Assembly (NCBI GenBank): GCA_903862935.1
Contig: CAIOZY010000047.1
Span: forward strand, 1 to 64,000
From: an uncultured Opitutaceae bacterium
GTDB lineage: Bacteria > Verrucomicrobiota > Verrucomicrobiia > Opitutales > Opitutaceae
Length of the DNA: 64,000 bases
Reading direction: 5' to 3'
The notes beneath the pieces were generated by a model. That model was not told the origin of the DNA. It saw only the letters and a list, made by a program, of their open reading frames with translations, and searched no databases. Positions 27,872-38,521 of this stretch are shown piece after piece. Each line of letters opens with the position of its first letter. Positions within the stretch are counted from its first letter, which is position 1. The translations under genes were made by a program, and so were the position numbers.

Positions 27872-28723
27872 ATGAAACGCATGATCCTTCCCGTCCTTTC
27901 CGGACTTGTCCTGGCCACCGGTCTGTTTGCTCAAGCCCCGAAGCTCACCACACCCGCCGCCAGCCCCGCCTGCACCCTCAAGCAGCGGGTCGGCCTCACC
28001 GACATTGAGGTGACGTATTCCCGTCCCAGCGCCAAGGGCCGCAAGGTCTTCGGCGAGCTGGTTCCCTACGGCGAGGTCTGGCGCGCCGGAGCGAACGCCT
28101 CGACCAAGGTGAGTTTCAGCACCGCGGTCAAACTGAACGGCGCCGCCATCCCCGCCGGGACCTACGCCATGTACGCGATTCCCGGCGAGAAGGAGTGGAC
28201 CGTGATCATCGACAAGGACACGAGCCTGTGGGGAGCCTACAACTACGACCCCAAGGGGGACTTGGTGCGCTTCTCCGCAATTCCCCAAGCACTCGACCAC
28301 CCGGTGGAAACCTTCTCGATCGGCTTTGACAACCTGCGCGACGAGTCGGCGACCCTGTGCCTGTGCTGGGAGAAGACCTGCGTGCCGCTCAAGCTCGAGG
28401 TGAGCGTGGTCGAGCCCGTTCTCGCCCAGATCAAAGCAGCCATGGCCTCCTCGGGCAAGAAGCCCTACGCCCCCGCGGCCCAGTTTTACCTCGAGCACGG
28501 CATGGACCTCAAGCAGGCCATGGCCTGGGTCGACGCTGCCATCGCTGAGAAGGAGACCTTCGGCATCGTGTACCTCAAGGCAAAGATCCTCGCCAAGGCC
28601 GGTGACAAGGTCGGGGCCGTGGCCGCGGCCAAGCACTCGATCGAGCTCGCCGGGAAGGTAGAGGGGGCCGTCAAGGAAGAGTACATCCGGCTGAACAACG
28701 AGCTGATCTCGAGCCTGCACTGA
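27872..28723 (+). CDS. DUF2911 protein, exported
   Basis: A 283-residue protein with a signal peptide (MKRMILPVLSGLVLATGLFA). The DUF2911 signature is clear: VTYSRPSAKGRKVFGELVPYGEVWRAGANA split by family spacing, then IPAGTYAMYAIPGEKEWTVIIDKD and WGAYNYDPKGDLVRF. The C-terminal 70 residues are helical, with a TPR-like pair (YLEHGMDLKQAMAWVDAAI). No activity is known for the family. ATG 27872 is used because upstream codons overlap holA. Its TGA shares one base with the start of the PIG-L gene, so the two are coupled. Confidence 0.88.
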   Translation: MKRMILPVLSGLVLATGLFAQAPKLTTPAASPACTLKQRVGLTDIEVTYSRPSAKGRKVFGELVPYGEVWRAGANASTKVSFSTAVKLNGAAIPAGTYAMYAIPGEKEWTVIIDKDTSLWGAYNYDPKGDLVRFSAIPQALDHPVETFSIGFDNLRDESATLCLCWEKTCVPLKLEVSVVEPVLAQIKAAMASSGKKPYAPAAQFYLEHGMDLKQAMAWVDAAIAEKETFGIVYLKAKILAKAGDKVGAVAAAKHSIELAGKVEGAVKEEYIRLNNELISSLH

Positions 28724-31218
28724 TGGCGCTGATTGCCCGGATCGGCCTTGCTGCCGCCCTCGCAGCCGGCCTCGGCGCAGCCCCAGCACGCGCCGAGGTC
28801 CCTCCGGAGTCGGCCTCTGGGATCCTGCTTGAACTCCAGGGCTTCCGGGAGCTGGGGAGCGTCCTGTACATCGCCGCCCATCCGGATGACGAGAACACGA
28901 GGCTGATCGCCTGCTTTGCGCGCGGCCGCGGCTACCGGACCGGGTACCTGTCGCTCACCCGCGGCGACGGGGGCCAGAATCTGATCGGTCCGGAGCTCGA
29001 CGAGGAGTTGGGGGCAATCCGCACCCAGGAACTCCTCGCCGCCCGCCGGATCGACGGGGGCGTGCAGTTCTTCAGCCGGGCCCGGGACTTCGGATTTTCC
29101 AAGGACTACCGGGACACGCTGCACCGCTGGGACCGCGACCAGGTCCTCTCCGACATGGTCCGCGTGATCCGCACCTTCCAGCCTGATGTCCTTGTCACGC
29201 GCTTCTCTGCGGTTCCGGGCGGAACCCACGGGCACCACACGGCCTCCACCGTCCTCGCCCTCGAGGCCTTCCGCATGGCGGGCGACCCGAAGGCCTTCCC
29301 CGAACAGCTTTCAAGCCTGCGGCCCTGGCAGCCCCGCCGCATCCTGTGGAACGCCTGGTCCTTCGGCCCGCGCGGCCGGCCCGTTACCGACTCCCCTCCC
29401 CCGGGTGCAATCCGGCTCGACGCGGGCGGATACCAGCCCCTACTGGGCGAGTCCTTCGGCGAGATCGCTGCCCTGAGCCGCTCGATGCACCGCAGCCAGG
29501 GAAATGGAACCCGGCTCACCCGGGGCTCGAGCCCGGAGTACTTCCAGGTGCTCGCGGGGGAGCCCGCGAAGTCCGACATCTTCGAGGGGATTGACACGAC
29601 CTGGGGCCGCTACCCGGGCGGCGCCGCGATAGACCGGCTGGCCGCGCAGGTCCAGGAGCGGTTCAATCCGGAAAACCCCGCGGCGAGCGTTCCCGACCTG
29701 TTAGGGGTGAGGAAGGCCCTCGCCGCCCTCCCGGGCGACGGAGCTCTCGCCTCCAAACTCTCCCAGCTTGACCTGATTATCCAGGGCTGCCTCGGCCTCC
29801 ACGTCGAGACAGCGGCGCCCGTGGCCGAGCTCGTCGCTGGCGAGAAAGTGGTGCTGCGCCACACCGTCATCGCGAGGGCTGGCTTCCCCGTGCGCTGGGT
29901 CGGAGTCCGCTATCCGGGGCCAAGACCGGCATTTGTCGCCACTGGAGTCGACCTGGTCCCCAATCAGCCCGCCAGCTGCGAGGATGTCCGGTCCTTTCCG
30001 GCGGGAACCCCGCCGAGCCAGCCCTACTGGCTGCGCGAGCGGGGCACGGCCGGGATGTTCCGCGTGGACGACCCCTCCCTTATCGGCCTTCCGGAGAACC
30101 CGCCGGCCATGCCCGTTGAGCTCGTCTTCGAACTTGGGGGACAGACCCTTTCCGTGCCCGGGGAACCCGTCCAGGTGACCGTGGATCCCGCCCGCGGCGA
30201 GGTGCGCCGCCGGCTGGAGGTCATTGCGCCGGTTTCGCTCGAGTTCGGGCACGACCTTGAGCTTTTCACCCCGGGAACCCCCCGGTCCGTCTCAATCGAG
30301 GTCTCCGCCTCGAGGGCAGGTTCCTCGGGCAACCTGATGCTCGGGGCCCCCTCCGGATGGACCGTGGCGCCCTCTAGCCTTCCCTTCCGGCTCACGGCCG
30401 CCGGCGACCGCGCCCATCTCAGCTTCACGGTGACCCCGCCGGCAAGTCCGTCCACGGCCGTCCTCGCCGCGGAGGCCGACGTTTCCGGAGAGCGGTGCAC
30501 CACCCGGCGGATTGAGATCCGCTACGAGCATATCCCCCAGATCCTGCTCCAGCCGCCGGCCGAGATGAAGGCCATCTGCCTGGACCTGAAGATCCGCGGC
30601 TCGCGAATCGGCTACTTGCCCGGGGCCGGGGACCGGGTTGCGGAATGCCTGGAGCGGATGGGCTACTCGGTCGACCTCCTCTCCGCAGGGGATCTGGCGC
30701 CCGAGCCGCTTCGCAGGTTTGACGCGGTCGTGGTCGGGGTCCGGGCCTTCAACACGCGGGCTGACCTCGGGACCGCGCTGCCGGCCCTGACCGCATACGC
30801 GCAAGCCGGGGGCACGGTGGTGGTACAGTACAACACCTCCGGATCGCTCCTTTCGGACCGGCTCGCCCCCTACGACCTGTCGATCTCTGACGGGCGGGTG
30901 ATCGACGAGGCCTCCCCGGTGACCTTCCTTGCGCCGGACCACCCGGCCCTCACCGGGCCCAACAGGATCGCAGCCGGGGACTTCTCCGGGTGGGTGCAGG
31001 AGCGGGCCCGCTACCTTCCAAAGAGCTGGGACAGCCGCTTCACCGCGCTTGTGTCCTGCCACGATCCCGGCGAGGTGGCGCAGGCCGGGGGGATCCTTGT
31101 TGCCCGTTGCGGCAGGGGATACTTCGTGTACACCTCCTTCTCGTGGTTCAGGCAGTTGCCCGACGGCGTGCCGGGTGCCTACCGGATCTTCGCCAATCTC
31201 GTTTCCCTGGGAAAATGA
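28723..31218 (+). CDS. Large exported PIG-L (LmbE-like) deacetylase
   Basis: An 831-residue protein with a signal peptide and an N-terminal LmbE/PIG-L zinc deacetylase domain: AAHPDDE at residues 51-57 and GGTHGHHT near residue 165 provide the metal ligands and catalytic Asp. Residues 340-600 are beta-rich (probable Ig-like or NEW3-like domains), and the last 210 residues look like a ThuA/glutamine-amidotransferase-like Rossmann domain (DAVVVGVRAFNTRADLG). Multi-domain PIG-L proteins like this are common in Bacteroidota and Verrucomicrobiota and probably act on N-acetyl sugars outside the cytosol. It overlaps DUF2911 by one base and the micro-ORF by four. Confidence 0.88.
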   Translation: MALIARIGLAAALAAGLGAAPARAEVPPESASGILLELQGFRELGSVLYIAAHPDDENTRLIACFARGRGYRTGYLSLTRGDGGQNLIGPELDEELGAIRTQELLAARRIDGGVQFFSRARDFGFSKDYRDTLHRWDRDQVLSDMVRVIRTFQPDVLVTRFSAVPGGTHGHHTASTVLALEAFRMAGDPKAFPEQLSSLRPWQPRRILWNAWSFGPRGRPVTDSPPPGAIRLDAGGYQPLLGESFGEIAALSRSMHRSQGNGTRLTRGSSPEYFQVLAGEPAKSDIFEGIDTTWGRYPGGAAIDRLAAQVQERFNPENPAASVPDLLGVRKALAALPGDGALASKLSQLDLIIQGCLGLHVETAAPVAELVAGEKVVLRHTVIARAGFPVRWVGVRYPGPRPAFVATGVDLVPNQPASCEDVRSFPAGTPPSQPYWLRERGTAGMFRVDDPSLIGLPENPPAMPVELVFELGGQTLSVPGEPVQVTVDPARGEVRRRLEVIAPVSLEFGHDLELFTPGTPRSVSIEVSASRAGSSGNLMLGAPSGWTVAPSSLPFRLTAAGDRAHLSFTVTPPASPSTAVLAAEADVSGERCTTRRIEIRYEHIPQILLQPPAEMKAICLDLKIRGSRIGYLPGAGDRVAECLERMGYSVDLLSAGDLAPEPLRRFDAVVVGVRAFNTRADLGTALPALTAYAQAGGTVVVQYNTSGSLLSDRLAPYDLSISDGRVIDEASPVTFLAPDHPALTGPNRIAAGDFSGWVQERARYLPKSWDSRFTALVSCHDPGEVAQAGGILVARCGRGYFVYTSFSWFRQLPDGVPGAYRIFANLVSLGK

Positions 31219-31346
31219 CTCCGCCGGAGGATGAGTCGACCGGACTGCCCGGACTGCGCTCCTGGAGGGCCGTCTACTTGGCCGTCCTGGGGGTGTTTGC
31301 CGCCTGGGTTGCCCTGCTGCTCCTGCTGACCCGGATGTTCTCGTGA
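31215..31346 (+). CDS. 43-residue single-span membrane protein between PIG-L and symporter
   Basis: A small gene revealed by its junctions: ATG at 31215 overlaps the upstream TGA (ATGA), and its own TGA at 31344-31346 overlaps the GTG start of the symporter (GTGA). The peptide has a polar, acidic N-terminus (MTPPEDESTG), a Trp-Arg pair, and a single hydrophobic span VYLAVLGVFAAWVALLLLL ending near TRMFS. It may be a small accessory subunit of the symporter, by analogy with the small membrane proteins encoded beside some solute:sodium symporters, but it does not resemble one I know. Confidence 0.75.
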   Translation: MTPPEDESTGLPGLRSWRAVYLAVLGVFAAWVALLLLLTRMFS

Positions 31347-33049
31347 ACGCGCTCGACTACCTGGTCCTGGTCGGGGCCCTGCTCGGAATCGCAGTCTACG
31401 GAATGTGGCGAACGCGGCACCGGGACACGCTGGGCTCGTACCTGCGGGGTTCCGGAACCGCGGGATGGGCCGCGATCGGCCTGTCGGTCATGGCGACCCA
31501 GGCGAGCGCCATAACCTTTCTGTCTACCCCCGGCCAGGGCTACGAATACGGCCTGGATTTCGTCCAGAACTACTTCGGGGCGCCCTTCGCGCTGATGCTG
31601 ATCGCCGCGGTCTTCCTGCCCATCCTGCGCCGGCTCGGGGTCTTCACGGCCTACGAATATCTGGGACGGCGGTTTGACGGAAAGACGCGCCTGCTGGGCA
31701 TGTCGCTGTTTCTCCTCCAGCGCGGGCTCGCTGCCGGGATCACGATCTATGCCCCTGCCATCGTCCTGTCCGCCCTGTTTGGCTGGCGGCTGGACGCCAC
31801 GATCGTCCTGACGGGCCTGCTCGTTGTCGTCTACACGGTCGCCGGGGGAAGCGACGCCGTCACGATCACCCAGAAGTACCAGATGGGGATTATCTTCGCG
31901 GGCCTGCTGGCCGCCTTTGCGGTCCTCATCCGCAGGCTTCCCGCCGGAGTTTCCGCCTCCGACGCGCTGGTTGTTGCCGGGGGGTTCGGCCGGCTGCACG
32001 CCGTCGACTTCTCGCTCGATGTGCACCGGCGCTACACGTTTTGGTCGGGGCTTCTGGGCGGGTTCTTTCTCGCCCTGTCCTACTTTGGCACCGACCAGTC
32101 CCAGGTTCAGCGCTACCTGGCCGGAGCGTCCCTAAAGGAGAGTCGGCTCGGACTCATGTTCAACGCGGTCTTCAAGATCCCGATGCAGGCCTTTATCCTG
32201 CTCTTGGGGGCGCTTGTCTTCGCCTTTTACCAGTTCGAGAGGCCGCCGATCGTCTTCAACCCGGCCGCCGCAGCGGCGGCAGTTGGGGCGGACTCAGGGA
32301 AACTGCAGAAGCTAGAGGCGGACTTTTCCTCGATCCACGCCCAGAAGCGCCTGTGGATCGGGCGCTGGCTCGAGGCTCGCCACTCGGGGGACGCAGCGGC
32401 GGAGGTCGCCGCCCGCTCCGAGGCCCTCGCCCAGGGCCGGCGGGCCGACATGGTGAGAACGCAGGTGCGCTCGGTCCTGCTCCGGCCCGGCCCGGCCGGA
32501 GCCGAAGCCAACGACGCCGACTACGTCTTTATCCGGTTCGTAATCGACCACCTGCCCCACGGTCTCGTGGGACTTCTGGTCGCGATGATTCTCGCCGCAG
32601 CAATGTCGTCCAAGTCCGCGGAGCTAAACGCGCTGGGTTCGGTGACAACCGTGGACCTATACCGCAACGCGGTCCGGCCGGGGGCCGACGACGCCCACTG
32701 CCTCGCCGCCTCGCGCTGGTTCACCGCGCTGTGGGGGCTGGCCGCGATCGCCTTCGCCCTGTTCGCGCGCCTCGCCGAGAACCTGATCCAGGCGATCAAC
32801 ATCCTCGGCTCGGTCTTCTACGGGGTCATGCTCGGAATCTTCCTCGTGGCTTTCTTCCTGAAGCCGGTGCGCGGAACGGCGGTCTTCTGGGGGGCGATCG
32901 GGGCCCAGGCGCTGGTCTTCGCCCTGTATGCCGCGCTCACAATCAGCTACCTGTGGTACAACCTGATCGGCTGCGCGGCCTGCGTCGGCCTAAGCCTTGC
33001 GATCCAGGCCGGCATCGGGTTCGGCACCCGGGAGGATAGGCACGCATGA
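31343..33049 (+). CDS. Sodium:solute symporter (SSS family)
   Basis: A 568-residue inner-membrane transporter with about 13 hydrophobic spans. Family features include ATQASAITFLSTPGQGYEYGLDF near residue 52, the FTAYEYLGRRFDGKTR loop and GGSDAVTITQKYQM. About 100 polar residues are inserted at roughly 297-395, between the core spans, and are rich in Ala, Glu and Arg; this is longer than in PutP-type members. The solute is unknown; sugars such as glucose, galactose or sialic acid are common in this branch. It starts with GTG 31343 and overlaps both neighbours by four bases. Confidence 0.9.
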   Translation: MNALDYLVLVGALLGIAVYGMWRTRHRDTLGSYLRGSGTAGWAAIGLSVMATQASAITFLSTPGQGYEYGLDFVQNYFGAPFALMLIAAVFLPILRRLGVFTAYEYLGRRFDGKTRLLGMSLFLLQRGLAAGITIYAPAIVLSALFGWRLDATIVLTGLLVVVYTVAGGSDAVTITQKYQMGIIFAGLLAAFAVLIRRLPAGVSASDALVVAGGFGRLHAVDFSLDVHRRYTFWSGLLGGFFLALSYFGTDQSQVQRYLAGASLKESRLGLMFNAVFKIPMQAFILLLGALVFAFYQFERPPIVFNPAAAAAAVGADSGKLQKLEADFSSIHAQKRLWIGRWLEARHSGDAAAEVAARSEALAQGRRADMVRTQVRSVLLRPGPAGAEANDADYVFIRFVIDHLPHGLVGLLVAMILAAAMSSKSAELNALGSVTTVDLYRNAVRPGADDAHCLAASRWFTALWGLAAIAFALFARLAENLIQAINILGSVFYGVMLGIFLVAFFLKPVRGTAVFWGAIGAQALVFALYAALTISYLWYNLIGCAACVGLSLAIQAGIGFGTREDRHA

Positions 33050-33819
33050 ACCTCCCCGTGATTGCCTTCGGCCAGCAGCCGTGCGGGTTCTTTCCGAAGA
33101 GGTTCCTCGTAGCGAAGTTTCGGACGGCCCGGCGCCTGCAGTCCGAGATTGGCGGGGAAATTGTCTTCTTCCTCCATGACAGCGACCACGACCCGCGGGA
33201 GACGCAGACCCTCCTGCGCGATCCGAGGACCGGCCACGAGGCCCGGCTCAACTTCGCCTTCGAGAACAAGATCCAGCGCAAATGGTCACCCCTGTTCCTC
33301 AAGCGGATCGCCGAGGGGTGGAAGGACGGCGTCGCGCGCCAGCTGCCGGCCTACGCCGGCCCGCGCGGCGTGGAGGCCTTCAGGGCTTGCGGGGCGACCC
33401 GGGTGGCCGACTTCTGTCTCGAGATGTACCGGCTCCTGGGACTCCTGGAGGGGGTCCGGGTCGTCCGCTCGGGCGACCCGGGGGTCCGGAGGGCCGCCTG
33501 CGATGTGGAGGACTTCTTCGTCGACACGCCGTACGAGGGGGAGACTGTTCGCGCCCGGATGGCCGGCGGCGTCCTTCGCCTGCACGAGGGAGGGGACTCC
33601 TACGTGACGCTATCTCCTTTCGCGTTCGGCAAGGAGCAGATCAGCCCCACCCGTGACACCCGGCTGCGCTGGATGCAGTCGGTGATCCGCTGCACCCATT
33701 ACATTGCAGGGGCCGGGGAACAGGCCTACCTTCACCCCGAGGAAACCCCGGAAATCACATTCGTACCCCGAGACACAATCGACCGATCCGATGAAGCCCA
33801 CACCGAGCGCGAACCGTAG
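33046..33819 (+). CDS. Compact BshC-like protein (putative bacillithiol cysteine ligase)
   Basis: A 257-residue cytosolic protein. Three patterns resemble the N-terminal and middle parts of BshC (YllA), which adds Cys to GlcN-malate, as I remember that family: GQQPCGFF at residues 9-16 (BshC: GQQxGLF), FFLHDSDHDPRET at 41-53 (BshC: VFWxxxEDHDxxE), and YIAGAGEQAY at 219-228 (BshC: YVGGPGEIAY), in the same order. Normal BshC is about 530-550 residues, so the C-terminal half is missing and the middle is shortened. The gene is directly followed by bshB1 and bshA, which strengthens the call. It overlaps the symporter by four bases and bshB1 by 29. Confidence 0.65.
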   Translation: MNLPVIAFGQQPCGFFPKRFLVAKFRTARRLQSEIGGEIVFFLHDSDHDPRETQTLLRDPRTGHEARLNFAFENKIQRKWSPLFLKRIAEGWKDGVARQLPAYAGPRGVEAFRACGATRVADFCLEMYRLLGLLEGVRVVRSGDPGVRRAACDVEDFFVDTPYEGETVRARMAGGVLRLHEGGDSYVTLSPFAFGKEQISPTRDTRLRWMQSVIRCTHYIAGAGEQAYLHPEETPEITFVPRDTIDRSDEAHTEREP

Positions 33820-34510
33820 GACCGAACCTCTGCTGGCCTTCGGCGCGCACCCCGACGACATCGAGCTGGCTTGCGGCGGCGTCATAGCCCTGGAGGTGCG
33901 CTCCGGCAGGCCGGTCCACTTCGTGGTCTGCTCCCGCGGCGAGGCGGGATCCCGGGGAACGCCCCGGATCCGGACCGCCGAGGCGCGGCGGGCCGCACAG
34001 ATTCTCGGGGCTACGATTGAGTTCATCAAACTCGACGGCGATTCCCACCTCGAACTCCGCGCCCGGCACGCGATCGCGCTGGCGGGGATCCTGCGCCGCG
34101 TGCGGCCGGCCGTCGTCCTCGCCCCGAGCACCGTCGAAAACCAGCATCCCGACCACGCGAGGCTCGGATGCCTGGTCCGCGACGCCGCTCGCCTGGCCCG
34201 CTACGGCGGGCTGAGGGAGCTCAGGAGCAGTCCTCCCCACTCGATCCGGAGGCTTTTCTTCTACGCGGTCACCCCGGAAGCGGAGCCGACCGGAGTCCAG
34301 CCGGTCCTCATCAACGTGTCCGCCCCCTCGATTAGGGACGCGTGGACTTCCTCCATGAAGGCCCACGCCTCCCAGGTTTCCGCCCGGCCGTACGTGGAGC
34401 TCCAACTCGCCCGGGCCCGCGTCCGCGGGCTGGGGGCCGGGATCGGCCACGCGATCGCCCTGTTTCCCGGCGATCCGCTGGTCCTGGGCGGCCTGGATTC
34501 CGAGGCATGA
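33791..34510 (+). CDS. bshB1: Bacillithiol biosynthesis deacetylase
   Basis: A 239-residue LmbE/PIG-L zinc hydrolase that deacetylates GlcNAc-malate to GlcN-malate. Motif AHPDD is at residues 19-23, followed by IELACGGVIALEVRSGR and the SRGEAGSRGTPRIRTAEA segment typical of BshB1. The later QHPDHAR gives the second metal-binding His pair, and the C-terminal MKAHASQVSA matches K-x-x-H-x-S-Q in the family. It starts at ATG 33791 inside the end of the BshC-like gene. Its TGA overlaps the bshA start (ATGA). Confidence 0.9.
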   Translation: MKPTPSANRRTEPLLAFGAHPDDIELACGGVIALEVRSGRPVHFVVCSRGEAGSRGTPRIRTAEARRAAQILGATIEFIKLDGDSHLELRARHAIALAGILRRVRPAVVLAPSTVENQHPDHARLGCLVRDAARLARYGGLRELRSSPPHSIRRLFFYAVTPEAEPTGVQPVLINVSAPSIRDAWTSSMKAHASQVSARPYVELQLARARVRGLGAGIGHAIALFPGDPLVLGGLDSEA

Positions 34511-35652
34511 GTTCCCTGCGCCCGCTCAAGATTGGCATTGTCTGCTACCCGTCCGTCGGCGGCAGCGGAATCGTTGCCTCGGCCCTGGGAGAGGAGCTCG
34601 CGCGACGGGGCCACGAGGTCCACTTCATCGGCTACGAGCGGCCGTTCCGGCTTCCGGCGCAGGCCCCGCGGATTTACTTCCACCCCGTGGTGATCAACGA
34701 CTACGGCCTGTTTCGATACCCGGACTACACTCTGCCCCTGTCGGTCAAGATGGCAGAGGTGAGCCGGGATCACGGGCTCGACGTCCTGCATGTGCACTAC
34801 GCGGTGCCCCACGCGACGGCCGCAATCCTCGCCCGCTCGATGCTACCCGAGGGGGACCGGCCTGGGGTCGTCACAACCCTTCACGGGACGGACACGACGC
34901 TTCTGGGGCGGGATCCGGGCTACGGTCCGGCGATTCGCCATGCCCTCGAGCGTTCCGACGCGATCACGACAGTCTCGGCATACCTCGCACAGGAGACCCG
35001 GGAGCTCTTGGGCATGAATCTCTCGATTGACGTCATCCCCAACTTCTTTGCGCCGAACGCCCCGAAGCGCCCCCGCGACGAAGTCCGGCGCGAACTGGGG
35101 ATCACCACGGAGGCGCTGGTCCTCCACGCCTCCAATCTCAGGCCGCCCAAACGGATCGACTTTTTGCTGGAGACGGCGGCCCGGGTCCGCCCCAGGGAGG
35201 GGTTTCGCCTGGTGATCCTGGCAGGCGGGGACTTTCGCCCGTTCGAGGCCGATGTCCGCAGGCTCGGCCTCGAGGGCCGGGTGATCGTCCGGGAGAAGGT
35301 GGTGGACATCGAGGACTACCTGCAGGCCTGCGACATCGGGTTGTTCACCTCCGAGATGGAGAGCTTCTGCGTGAGCATCCTCGAGGCGATGGCGTTCGGG
35401 GCGCCCAGCGCGGCGTTCGCCGTCGGCGGGGTCCCGGAGGTCACCGTTTCCGGCGAGACGGGCCTCTTGGTCCCATTCGGGGACCTGGCCGCCCTCACCG
35501 GCTCGGTCGAGTCCCTGATCCGGGACCCGGCGCTGCGGGCCCGCCTGGGTCGGGCCGCCCGGGAGCGGGCCGAAAGGCTCTTTTCGGCCGCCACAATCGT
35601 CCCCCGTTACGAAGAGCTTTACCGCAGGGTCCTTTCCCGCGCGCGCGGCTAG
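34507..35652 (+). CDS. bshA: N-acetyl-alpha-D-glucosaminyl L-malate synthase
   Basis: A 381-residue GT4 glycosyltransferase, first enzyme of bacillithiol synthesis (UDP-GlcNAc plus L-malate). BshA hallmarks are KIGIVCYPSVGGSGIVASALG at the N-terminus (cut into shorter blocks by turns), HEVHFIGYERPFRL, VLHVHYAVPHATAA and TTLHGTDTTLLG, and the C-terminal ESFCVSILEAMAFGAPSAA with the EX7E glutamates. Length is normal. It follows bshB1 with a four-base overlap and ends the coupled run; purB begins 52 bases later. Confidence 0.93.
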   Translation: MSSLRPLKIGIVCYPSVGGSGIVASALGEELARRGHEVHFIGYERPFRLPAQAPRIYFHPVVINDYGLFRYPDYTLPLSVKMAEVSRDHGLDVLHVHYAVPHATAAILARSMLPEGDRPGVVTTLHGTDTTLLGRDPGYGPAIRHALERSDAITTVSAYLAQETRELLGMNLSIDVIPNFFAPNAPKRPRDEVRRELGITTEALVLHASNLRPPKRIDFLLETAARVRPREGFRLVILAGGDFRPFEADVRRLGLEGRVIVREKVVDIEDYLQACDIGLFTSEMESFCVSILEAMAFGAPSAAFAVGGVPEVTVSGETGLLVPFGDLAALTGSVESLIRDPALRARLGRAARERAERLFSAATIVPRYEELYRRVLSRARG

Positions 35653-35704: not shown

Positions 35705-37150
35705 GTGAACGATTCGCCTGATCCCGAGACCACCCAGATTCCGAACGTCCTCGCCGAGAGATACGCCTCGCCGGCAATGAGGGCGATCTGGTCGCAGACC
35801 GGCCGGGTGGGGCTCGAGAGGGACTTCTGGATCGCCGTCATGAAGGCCCAGAGGGACCTTGGGGTGCCGATTCCCGCGGAGGCGATCCGGGACTACGAAC
35901 GGGTCAAGGGCCGGATCGACCTCGGATCGATCGCCAAGCGCGAGCGCTCAACCCTCCACGATGTGAAGGCCCGGATCGAGGAGTTCTCGGACCTGGCCCA
36001 GAGGCAGTTCATCCACCTCGGCCTCACCAGCCGCGACCTGACCGAGAACGTCGAGCAGCTGCAGGTGCTGCGCGGGCTCAAGCTCGTGCAATTCAAGGCC
36101 GCCGCCGCGCTGGCCGCTCTGGCTGGCCAGGCCAAGACGCACCGCGACCTGATGATCACCGGCCGGACCCACAACGTTCCGGCCCAGCCCACGACCTTCG
36201 GCAAGCGCCTGGCCATGTTCGGGCAGGAACTGTTGGTCGCCTTCGAGCGGCTCGGGGCACTGGTGGACCGCTACCCGGTTCGCGGGCTCAAGGGGGCGGT
36301 CGGAACCCAGCTGGACCAGCTGACGCTCCTAGGCGGCGACGCCGGAAAGCTGGCCGAACTCGAGGCCCGGGTCCTTAAGCACCTCGGTTTCCGGGGCTCC
36401 CTCAACGCCGTGGGCCAGGTCTACCCGAGGAGCCTCGACTTCGAGGTCGTGGGGGCGCTGCACCAAGTCGGCGCGGCCGGCGCGAGTTTCGCCACGACCC
36501 TGCGCCTCATGGCCGGTGCCGGACTCCTCACCGAAGGCTTCCAGGAGGGCCAGGTGGGATCCTCCGCGATGCCCCACAAGATGAACGCACGCAACTGCGA
36601 GCGAGTCTGCGGATTCTCGACGATCCTGGGCGGCTATGTGACGATGACCGCGGCCCTGTCCGGGCACCAGTGGAACGAGGGCGACGTGTCGTGCTCGGTC
36701 GTCCGCAGGGTCGCTCTGCCGGACGCCTTCTTCGCGGCGGACGGACTCCTCGAAACTCTGATCACGGTGATTCGGCAGATGGAGGTATTCCCGGCCGCGA
36801 TTCTTGCCGAAAACGAGCGCAACCTCCCCTTCCTTGCCACGACGACGATCCTCATGGAGGCGGTGAAGGCGGGCGCAGGCCGCGAGACGGCGCACGCGGC
36901 GATCCGCGAGCACGCCTTGGCGGCGGCCCGCGCGATCCGCTTGGGCGACGGCGATCCCGACCTTCTCGCCCGGATCGCTGGGGACCGGAAGATAGGCCTA
37001 GGCAAGAAGGCGCTGCAGGCGATCCTCGCCGACAGCGCCCGGTTTGTCGGGGCCGCCCCGAACCAGGTCGACACATTCGTCTCCGAGGTGGACATTCTGG
37101 CGCGGAGGTTCAGGGGGGCGGCCGAGTACGAGCCCGGGAAACTCCTTTAG
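35705..37150 (+). CDS. purB: Adenylosuccinate lyase
   Basis: A 481-residue fumarase-superfamily lyase acting twice in purine synthesis (SAICAR and adenylosuccinate cleavage). The superfamily signature is GSSAMPHKMNARNCERV near residue 280, with the catalytic Ser in the flexible loop, and TGRTHNVPAQPTTFGK carries the catalytic His region. The opening (IPNVLAERYASPAMRAIW) and TSRDLTENVEQLQ look like the actinobacterial-type PurB as I remember it, not the 431-residue Bacillus form, which could mean transfer or an old paralogue. Start is GTG 35705. Confidence 0.94.
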   Translation: MNDSPDPETTQIPNVLAERYASPAMRAIWSQTGRVGLERDFWIAVMKAQRDLGVPIPAEAIRDYERVKGRIDLGSIAKRERSTLHDVKARIEEFSDLAQRQFIHLGLTSRDLTENVEQLQVLRGLKLVQFKAAAALAALAGQAKTHRDLMITGRTHNVPAQPTTFGKRLAMFGQELLVAFERLGALVDRYPVRGLKGAVGTQLDQLTLLGGDAGKLAELEARVLKHLGFRGSLNAVGQVYPRSLDFEVVGALHQVGAAGASFATTLRLMAGAGLLTEGFQEGQVGSSAMPHKMNARNCERVCGFSTILGGYVTMTAALSGHQWNEGDVSCSVVRRVALPDAFFAADGLLETLITVIRQMEVFPAAILAENERNLPFLATTTILMEAVKAGAGRETAHAAIREHALAAARAIRLGDGDPDLLARIAGDRKIGLGKKALQAILADSARFVGAAPNQVDTFVSEVDILARRFRGAAEYEPGKLL

Positions 37151-37161
37151 GCCGCTCGGGA

Positions 37162-37178
37162 CCGGAGCGTTCCTCCGG
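37162..37178 (+). terminator. Possible weak terminator after purB
   Basis: CCGGAG-CGTTC-CTCCGG can form a six-base-pair stem beginning 12 bases after the purB stop. It is followed by GAAGTTTTCG, a short T-run only, so termination would be partial at best. Confidence 0.3.
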
Positions 37179-37264
37179 CCGAAGTTTTCGTTTGCCTACG
37201 CCCTGTGCGGGCGGCTTTACTCACCCCTCGCATATTTTCCTGAATCCTCTTACCCGACACTCAC

Positions 37265-38521
37265 ATGGCTGAACTCGTAGGCAACGTACTGGTGGGCCAA
37301 TCCGGCGGCCCCACCTCTGTCATCAACGCCAGCGTGGCAGGCATCGTATCCGAGGCCCTGAACCACGCTTGCATCGAGGAAATCTACGGGGGCCTGGACG
37401 GTGTCCTTGGTATCCTGCAGGAGGACCTGATCGACCTCGCCGCTGAGTCCCAGCAGCAGATCCGCGCCCTGAAGCACACCCCTGGGGCGGCCCTGGGGAC
37501 CTGCCGTTACAAGCTCAAAAAGCAGCAGGACTTCGAGCGCGTGCTGGAGGTCTTCAAGGCCCACAACATCCGCTACTTCTTCTACATTGGCGGTAACGAC
37601 TCCCAGGACACCGCCGACAAGATCTCGAAATTGGCCCAACAGCAGGGCTACGAGCTGCGCGTCGTGGGGGTTCCCAAGACGATCGACAACGACCTGGCCG
37701 TCACGGACCACTGTCCGGGCTACGGCAGCGTCATCAAGTACCTGACGACCACGATCCGCGAGACGGCCTGCGACAACGAGGCCATGGGCAAGGGCGACCT
37801 GGTCTCGATCATCGAGGCCATGGGCCGCAGCGCCGGCTGGATCGCGGCCGGAGCCGCTCTGGCGAAACGCCGCGACCACCCGCACGATCCGCCCCATATC
37901 ATTCTCCTCCCCGAGATCCCCTTCGCCCAGGAGAAGGTCCTCGAGGACGTCCGCCGCATCCTCAAGCGCGAGAAGTACTGCATGATCATCGTCGCCGAGG
38001 GGCTCGTGGACGCCGACGGCAATTACCTGGCGGCAGACTCCGCGACCGACGCCTTCGGCCACGCGCGCCTCGGAGGCGCGGGCGACGCACTGGGCGAGAT
38101 CATCGAGTCGAACATCCCCGGCGTTAAGGTGCGGGTCGCCCGCCCCGGAACGATCCAGCGCGCCGCGGCGCACTGCGCCTCGAAGACCGACGTCGACGAG
38201 GCCTTCCTCGCCGGCCAGGCCGCCGTCAAGGCAGCCGTCTCGGGCGAGACCGACAAGATGGTGACCCTCATCCGCGGCGACGGCGACCACTACACGTGCG
38301 AGACGGGCCTGGCCCCTCTGAGCGAGATTGCCAACGGCGTGAAAAAGCTTCCGCGCGAGTGGATCAACGAGGACAACATCAGCATGAACTTCCAGTTCCT
38401 GCGCTACGCGCTGCCCCTGATCCAGGGCGAGGTGGCCCTCCCCCACGACAACGGGGCCCCGGTGTACGCCAGGCTCGACAAGGTGCGCATCGACAAGGTG
38501 ATGCCCCCGTACGAGATCTGA
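37265..38521 (+). CDS. pfp: Pyrophosphate-dependent 6-phosphofructokinase
   Basis: A 418-residue phosphofructokinase family member. The N-terminal VGQSGGPTSVINASVAGI gives the phosphate-binding loop. Donor choice is shown by GGNDS at about residues 109-113 (Asp follows the Asn where ATP enzymes keep Gly) and by PKTIDNDL, with Lys before TIDND, where ATP-PFKs have G. Both favour PPi over ATP. It reversibly phosphorylates fructose 6-phosphate in the cytosol, so it can work in glycolysis and gluconeogenesis. The gene is single, with a strong terminator 40 bases downstream. Confidence 0.92.
   Translation: MAELVGNVLVGQSGGPTSVINASVAGIVSEALNHACIEEIYGGLDGVLGILQEDLIDLAAESQQQIRALKHTPGAALGTCRYKLKKQQDFERVLEVFKAHNIRYFFYIGGNDSQDTADKISKLAQQQGYELRVVGVPKTIDNDLAVTDHCPGYGSVIKYLTTTIRETACDNEAMGKGDLVSIIEAMGRSAGWIAAGAALAKRRDHPHDPPHIILLPEIPFAQEKVLEDVRRILKREKYCMIIVAEGLVDADGNYLAADSATDAFGHARLGGAGDALGEIIESNIPGVKVRVARPGTIQRAAAHCASKTDVDEAFLAGQAAVKAAVSGETDKMVTLIRGDGDHYTCETGLAPLSEIANGVKKLPREWINEDNISMNFQFLRYALPLIQGEVALPHDNGAPVYARLDKVRIDKVMPPYEI

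Follow-up and report, generated by a model that had tools for sequence, protein, structure and literature searches.

How would cysteine be added to glucosamine-malate (GlcN-malate) in an operon that carries bshA and a bshB-like gene but has a gene of half the usual size in the place of bshC? This question is raised by the window analyzed here, a stretch of 64,000 nucleotides (positions 1 to 64,000 of contig CAIOZY010000047.1, GenBank assembly GCA_903862935.1) from an uncultured Opitutaceae bacterium of the phylum Verrucomicrobiota. The gene in question is an open reading frame (ORF) of 257 residues, hereafter X, which is proposed to be a minimal BshC. The original prediction, made from the letters of this locus, had read it together with bshB and bshA as a complete bacillithiol gene set. 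Our analysis leads us to place X, with a probability of roughly 80%, in the BshC superfamily as a divergent, minimal member that replaces BshC and is predicted to add cysteine to GlcN-malate. It seems that a group of Verrucomicrobia produces the protective thiol bacillithiol, or a closely related compound, by means of a half-size BshC.

X replaces bshC in the operon and across genomes

The X gene is tightly packed between its neighbors. Its start codon lies within the ATGA that closes the upstream symporter gene (4-base overlap), while its 3' end runs over the bshB start at 33791 by 29 bases, as originally predicted. The same two values are the median overlaps with the symporter gene (82 loci) and with bshB (85 loci from which both genes were extracted). 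From 137 loci we collected 109 distinct proteins, the window copy included, all of them 253-291 amino acids (aa) long and with a mean pairwise identity of 69% (minimum 49%). The three BshC landmarks recognized at the outset are present in order in the window copy, as GQQPCGFF, DSDHDPRE and GAGEQAY, and their key residues are invariant in all 109 sequences. The 49 invariant positions of the set include G9, Q10, Q11, C13, K24, H44, D47, H48, D49, E52, C216, H218, G222, E225, Y228 and R242, and one cluster reads HD-x-DHD-x-RET. Invariant motifs and constant length across 109 sequences speak against a chance ORF and against a local truncation; X is a genuine, ancient gene whose size has stayed constant.

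No match to the BshC family PF10079 was found in the genome of the window (3.35 Mb in 62 contigs, 95.6% complete) or in any of 95 relatives, several of which are listed as single-contig genomes. A full-length bshC elsewhere in the same genome, which the original prediction had singled out as evidence that would speak against it, was therefore not encountered. Phylogenetic profiling with bshA, suggested at the same time, gave a strongly positive result. X was identified in 44 of the 95 relatives and BshA above its cut-off in 43: both are present in 42, X alone in two (G040 and G076), BshA alone in one (G012) and neither in 50. A match in G033 (27% identity, two internal TGA codons) was left out of the X counts, and G076, with a 38-residue fragment in a genome that is 50% complete, was kept. 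Because X in G040 and bshA in G012 sit on short contigs (3,324 and 3,061 bases, respectively), these two exceptions may be assembly gaps.

In a wider sample of 288 genomes of the phylum, BshA was found in 21, X in 18 and BshC above its cut-off in 3. The 21 BshA genomes are exactly the 18 with X, every one of which has BshA, and the 3 with BshC; X and BshC never occur together. At all three BshC loci compared (L141-L143, from G135, G199 and G361; G325 was left out) the gene order is bshC-bshB-bshA, and elsewhere it is X-bshB-bshA. The shared operon position and the genome-by-genome replacement indicate that X occupies the slot of bshC.

Fold and sequence of X compared with BshC

The AlphaFold2 model of X has a mean predicted local distance difference test (pLDDT) score of 93.4. 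Searching 350,542 chains of the Protein Data Bank (PDB) with Foldseek, we obtained B. subtilis BshC (YllA, PDB 4wbd) as the sole match with E<=0.001 (E 3.8e-10; TM-score 0.61 on the query). In VIA-align, 239 of the 257 residues of X were superposed on 4wbd with Z 20.3, 2.6 Å and 17% identity. The next fold, class I lysyl-tRNA synthetase (LysRS, PDB 1irx), reached Z 14.7, followed at 9.3 and below by further class I synthetases and folds related to them. LysRS, TyrRS, GluRS and MetRS are among the 50 entries listed; the mycothiol cysteine ligase MshC and cysteinyl-tRNA synthetase (CysRS) are not, an absence that carries no weight against them. The match to the Rossmann core of BshC, a check set in advance, was thus obtained, and it is this comparison that decides for a BshC-like protein where plain sequence searches stay silent.

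The structural alignment begins at residue 82 of 4wbd. As its range reaches residue 515, a small number of residues in the tail may align beyond the end of the profile alignment described below, which places X on columns 85-354 of 537 of BshC. X corresponds to the core of BshC; some 80 residues are absent at the N-terminus, as is most of the C-terminal part. The prediction that the C-terminal half is missing was therefore right about the loss of most of that part and overlooked the loss at the N-terminus; a BshC-like nature is supported by fold and genome pattern, in the form of a core rather than of a BshC cut in half. In BshC, the coiled coil sits in the C-terminal part, and because X ends at 257 aa with the alignment stopping near column 354, no room is left for it. 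According to a 2015 review (PMC4360819), BshC has connecting peptides in addition to its Rossmann core, needs a coiled coil to dimerize and contains ADP in a second pocket.

By sequence alone, the link between X and BshC is weak. The BshC models PF10079 and TIGR03998 were each matched by 6 of 20 divergent X homologues (best E 8.5e-6, with 25.8 bits against a cut-off of 27, and best E 2e-4, with 20.4 bits against a cut-off of 265.8, respectively), every other family listed for these 20 being matched by one member each. None of the sequences scanned, the window copy and the 20 homologues, exceeded a curated BshC cut-off. The sole sub-threshold PF10079 match in the sample of 288 genomes (in G358) is itself an X homologue. 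When the profile of the 109 X sequences was aligned by hhalign to that of seven BshC sequences (521-554 aa, one row of 474 aa being cut by a contig end), the score was 34.3, with the motifs in order across 212 columns, compared with 13.2-23.4 for ten column shuffles and 15.2 for a reversal. HMMER searches in both directions between these small sets gave best E values of 0.0011 (109 sequences) and 0.005 (7), which we grade as weak.

In this alignment, 30 BshC-invariant residues face a residue of X, and 13 of them are the same residue and invariant in all 109 X sequences, among them GQQ, K, DHD..E, R, Q and G..E..Y. X thus resembles BshC in its core fold, in the order of the motifs and in these 13 residues, as well as in preceding bshB-bshA and in its strict co-occurrence with BshA. 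It differs from BshC in its size, in its missing N-terminal region, in having little after column 354 and in four invariant residues of its own: C13 stands opposite the invariant glycine G92 of BshC, H44 opposite the invariant alanine A129, and C216 and H218 opposite A330 and A332. In the model of X, C13 and H44 directly follow strands, while C216 and H218 just precede one. CysRS and MshC carry a zinc site; a corresponding site formed by C13, C216 and H218 was considered for X and dropped, as C13 is probably at one end of the sheet in the model and C216 and H218 at the other.

The five-gene module

X belongs to a module of five genes in the order large PIG-L protein, Na+/solute symporter, X, bshB and bshA (Table 1). 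The original prediction extended over 33046-35652 and so covered X, bshB and bshA; the symporter and large PIG-L genes (28723-33049) had been overlooked.

Table 1 Genes of the module in the window
Feature	Coordinates	Strand	Basis
Large PIG-L protein, 831 aa, signal-peptide-like start, PIG-L and beta-rich domains	28723..31218	+	PF02585, 58.5 bits
Na+/solute symporter (SSS family), 568 aa	31343..33049	+	TIGR00813, 214.7 bits; PF00474
X, half-size BshC homologue, 257 aa, proposed cysteine-adding enzyme	33046..33819	+	ORF, conservation, fold, co-occurrence with bshA
bshB1-like deacetylase, 239 aa, 29-base overlap with X	33791..34510	+	Pfam PIG-L, 84.3 bits; best NCBIfam model BshB1
bshA, GlcNAc-malate synthase, 381 aa, 4-base overlap with bshB	34507..35652	+	TIGR03999

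A homologue scan of named genomes returned 316 relatives, the best 80 of which were examined as named loci, and neighbors were counted in these 80 wherever the contig left room for them. All five genes are present in 58 of the 80 loci. Downstream of X, bshB was found in 77/79 and bshA in 69/73 loci; upstream, the symporter gene was found in 73/75 and the large PIG-L gene in 62/66. The two bsh genes had both been called clear. For bshA this holds, with 384.5 bits for TIGR03999 against an equivalog cut-off of 273.7. For bshB it was slightly overstated: TIGR04001 (BshB1) is its best NCBIfam model, with 127.4 bits against a cut-off of 182.5, so that it falls below the equivalog threshold and yields no BshB1/BshB2 call for the pathway.

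The two upstream partners accompany X beyond the immediate locus. Close homologues of the symporter (E<=1e-90) are present in 45 of the 95 relatives, namely all 44 with X and G012, which has BshA only. The large PIG-L protein is present in 43 and is missing despite X in G024 and G040. In G030 and G090, the symporter and PIG-L genes lie together on a contig other than that of X, and in G032 a distance of 2.5 Mb separates the PIG-L gene from X; the link of both partners to X holds even where the genes are unlinked. Neither partner was found within the 18 kb fetched at the three BshC loci. In G024 (L150), the region upstream of the symporter gene showed nothing of the PIG-L protein but its last 55 residues (74% identity), perhaps a remnant or a diverged copy. 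Four loci (L032, L039, L074 and L101) have no PIG-L gene upstream of X, and two of these, L074 and L101, also lack the symporter gene there.

The best NCBIfam model of the 831-aa PIG-L protein is the mycothiol amidase Mca (47.9 bits, below cut-off), and its sequence profile matches LnmX and MshB in the PDB. Its model (pLDDT 83.6) matches the fold of diacetylchitobiose deacetylases. Like Mca, MshB and other PIG-L enzymes, it has a PIG-L domain with HPDDE, a motif found in 69/69 full-length copies; unlike Mca and MshB, it is about 830 aa long, with a signal-peptide-like start and beta-rich C-terminal domains. Judging from the hydrophobic N-terminus that a crude test picked up in 62/69 full-length copies, the protein is apparently exported. 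Relatives with about 30-38% identity occur on plasmids of rhizobia and Rhodobacterales (e.g. Aminobacter and Rhizobium), so this type of large PIG-L protein is not tied to bacillithiol. A counterpart of the module outside the X group was not found among the plasmids, the only set searched for it; plasmid matches to the symporter and PIG-L protein in Emticicia, Rufibacter and Parasedimentitalea were considered as possible links to bshC and ruled out, being sugar-use loci without bsh genes.

The best 80 of the 316 relatives are mostly labeled Opitutaceae, Opitutia, Limisphaerales or Verrucomicrobia, with a few labeled just 'bacterium' and one Cyanobacteria. In that last case (L081), the X operon lies on a 418-kb contig of Cyanobacteria bacterium SZAS-4, and its X is 66% identical to the window copy, which reflects either a transfer or a mislabeled genome bin. 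Neither BshC nor X was found in the viral contigs searched. After bshA, the window continues at 35705-38521 with what we take to be a purB-like gene followed by a phosphofructokinase-like gene, neither of which had a same-strand homologue near X in the other loci searched. A promoter scan gave 0 sites against 0.4 expected and is hence uninformative.

Proposed reaction and alternative explanations

In the pathway that we propose, BshA would couple uridine diphosphate N-acetylglucosamine (UDP-GlcNAc) with malate, and the BshB-like protein would deacetylate the resulting GlcNAc-malate to GlcN-malate. X, with its core resembling class I synthetases, would then link cysteine to the amine of glucosamine through an amide bond, so that bacillithiol or a closely related compound results. 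Its active site would consist of the retained GQQ...K, DxHD/E and G-x-x-E-x-x-Y clusters; the residues common to X and BshC make a shared active site likely. As C13 and H44 replace a glycine and an alanine of BshC right after strands, catalysis by X may differ in detail. We infer the reaction itself, cysteine as its substrate, a possible requirement for ATP and which thiol is made, including that it is bacillithiol itself. The chemistry proposed for X, the transfer of cysteine to a glucosamine amine, is like that of MshC, and MshC and CysRS have the class I synthetase fold (PMC2922099). X of the window matches neither of them in Pfam or NCBIfam at E<=1.

Several observations weigh against a BshC-like cysteine ligase. 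At E<=1, no Pfam or NCBIfam model of any kind matches X of the window; phmmer against the PDB gave chance matches only, without 4wbd, and a 30-row X profile did not find 4wbd either. The best PF10079 match among the divergent homologues spans only residues 21-152 and begins after the GQQ motif. The probability of the profile-profile alignment of 109 X with 7 BshC sequences is low, at 22.0%, and with alignments of 30 and 20 rows hhalign gave 15.9% and 28.7% and reached no further than the first two motifs. X does not keep 17 of the 30 BshC-invariant residues that face it in the alignment. The P values for co-occurrence with BshA, 1e-23 and below, ignore relatedness among the genomes and are descriptive only. 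Some operons are incomplete: bshB is missing beside X in L089, L098, L123 and L128/L146, with none between X and bshA, and another deacetylase may act there; L041, L048, L093 and L102 (G013) have X, the symporter and PIG-L genes and bshB with no adjoining bshA, which in G013 lies on a contig other than that of X. The redox partners YpdA and bacilliredoxin, which are common, not obligatory, companions of bacillithiol, were each found above cut-off in 0/95 relatives. The absence of bacilliredoxin weighs little, because a control search finds it in only one of the three BshC-bearing control genomes. Weaker YpdA matches (E<=1e-30) in 7/95 relatives were taken as other flavoproteins, since they are below cut-off and lie in open frames of 765-776 codons. 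Finally, a 2015 review states that BshC itself had not once been demonstrated to be active in vitro and that its mechanism of ligation was not understood (PMC4360819).

Some of these observations would fit other explanations. X could be a BshC-fold ligase of the same pathway that adds a group other than cysteine, such as a different amino acid or an acyl group, or uses another amino sugar, the product being a malyl-glucosamine compound rather than bacillithiol and perhaps no thiol. The little sequence that X and BshC have in common, the invariance of C13, H44, C216 and H218 in X only, the lack of YpdA and bacilliredoxin above cut-off in the 95 relatives and the two extra module genes, which are lacking within 18 kb at the three BshC loci, are all consistent with this. 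We nevertheless consider it improbable, as GlcN-malate is the likely substrate given that BshA scores above its equivalog cut-off and that TIGR04001 is the best model for bshB, and as X replaces BshC exactly, both in the operon and across genomes.

X might also have lost catalysis and act as a partner or regulator whose fold derives from BshC, with an unrecognized enzyme carrying out the cysteine step. This would account for the retention of no more than 13 of the 30 BshC-invariant residues that face X and for the loss of the N-terminal region and of most of the C-terminal one. It is made very improbable by the polar motif residues, which are invariant in 109 X sequences, by the lack of any other bshC in the genome of the window and in the 95 relatives, and by X and BshC never being found together in 288 genomes. 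The silence of plain sequence searches with X of the window, the Z of 14.7 for LysRS 1irx and the Z of 8-9 for many class I synthetases could also be taken to mean that X is an unrelated class-I-synthetase-like (HUP/Rossmann) protein, similar to BshC in fold only. That explanation is already disfavored and hardly credible, for BshC stands clearly above the rest (Z 20.3, and the sole Foldseek match with E<0.001), and divergent X homologues match the BshC models specifically and share the operon slot.

For X as a minimal BshC, a wider scenario would embrace the entire module, which occurs mainly in Verrucomicrobiota; we offer it tentatively and think it rather unlikely as a whole. X would be a single-domain cysteine ligase with C13 as a possible active-site residue, the coiled coil of BshC being dispensable for the chemistry, and it would operate together with an extracytoplasmic salvage loop. 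In this loop, the exported PIG-L amidase would cleave exported bacillithiol conjugates, the Na+ symporter would return GlcN-malate and X would recharge it with cysteine, making a bacillithiol counterpart of the gamma-glutamyl cycle.

Our literature search, which left subscription journals and preprints mostly outside, found no earlier account of X among the papers listed (bacillithiol in connection with Verrucomicrobia, Opitutus, PIG-L or a symporter); one paper that came up deals with mercury resistance only. A 2025 survey required similar length and >80% coverage (PMC12719100), criteria that a half-size BshC would fail. A 2018 survey counts Verrucomicrobia among the lineages without a documented or predicted low-molecular-weight thiol (PMC6282198), and for this lineage X offers an answer. 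BshC is the least understood enzyme of bacillithiol synthesis, and 109 distinct half-size sequences now show which of its parts are conserved, while X is a more compact protein to assay and crystallize. Its constant association with a symporter and a large PIG-L protein turns extracytoplasmic recycling of the thiol or its conjugates into a testable idea.

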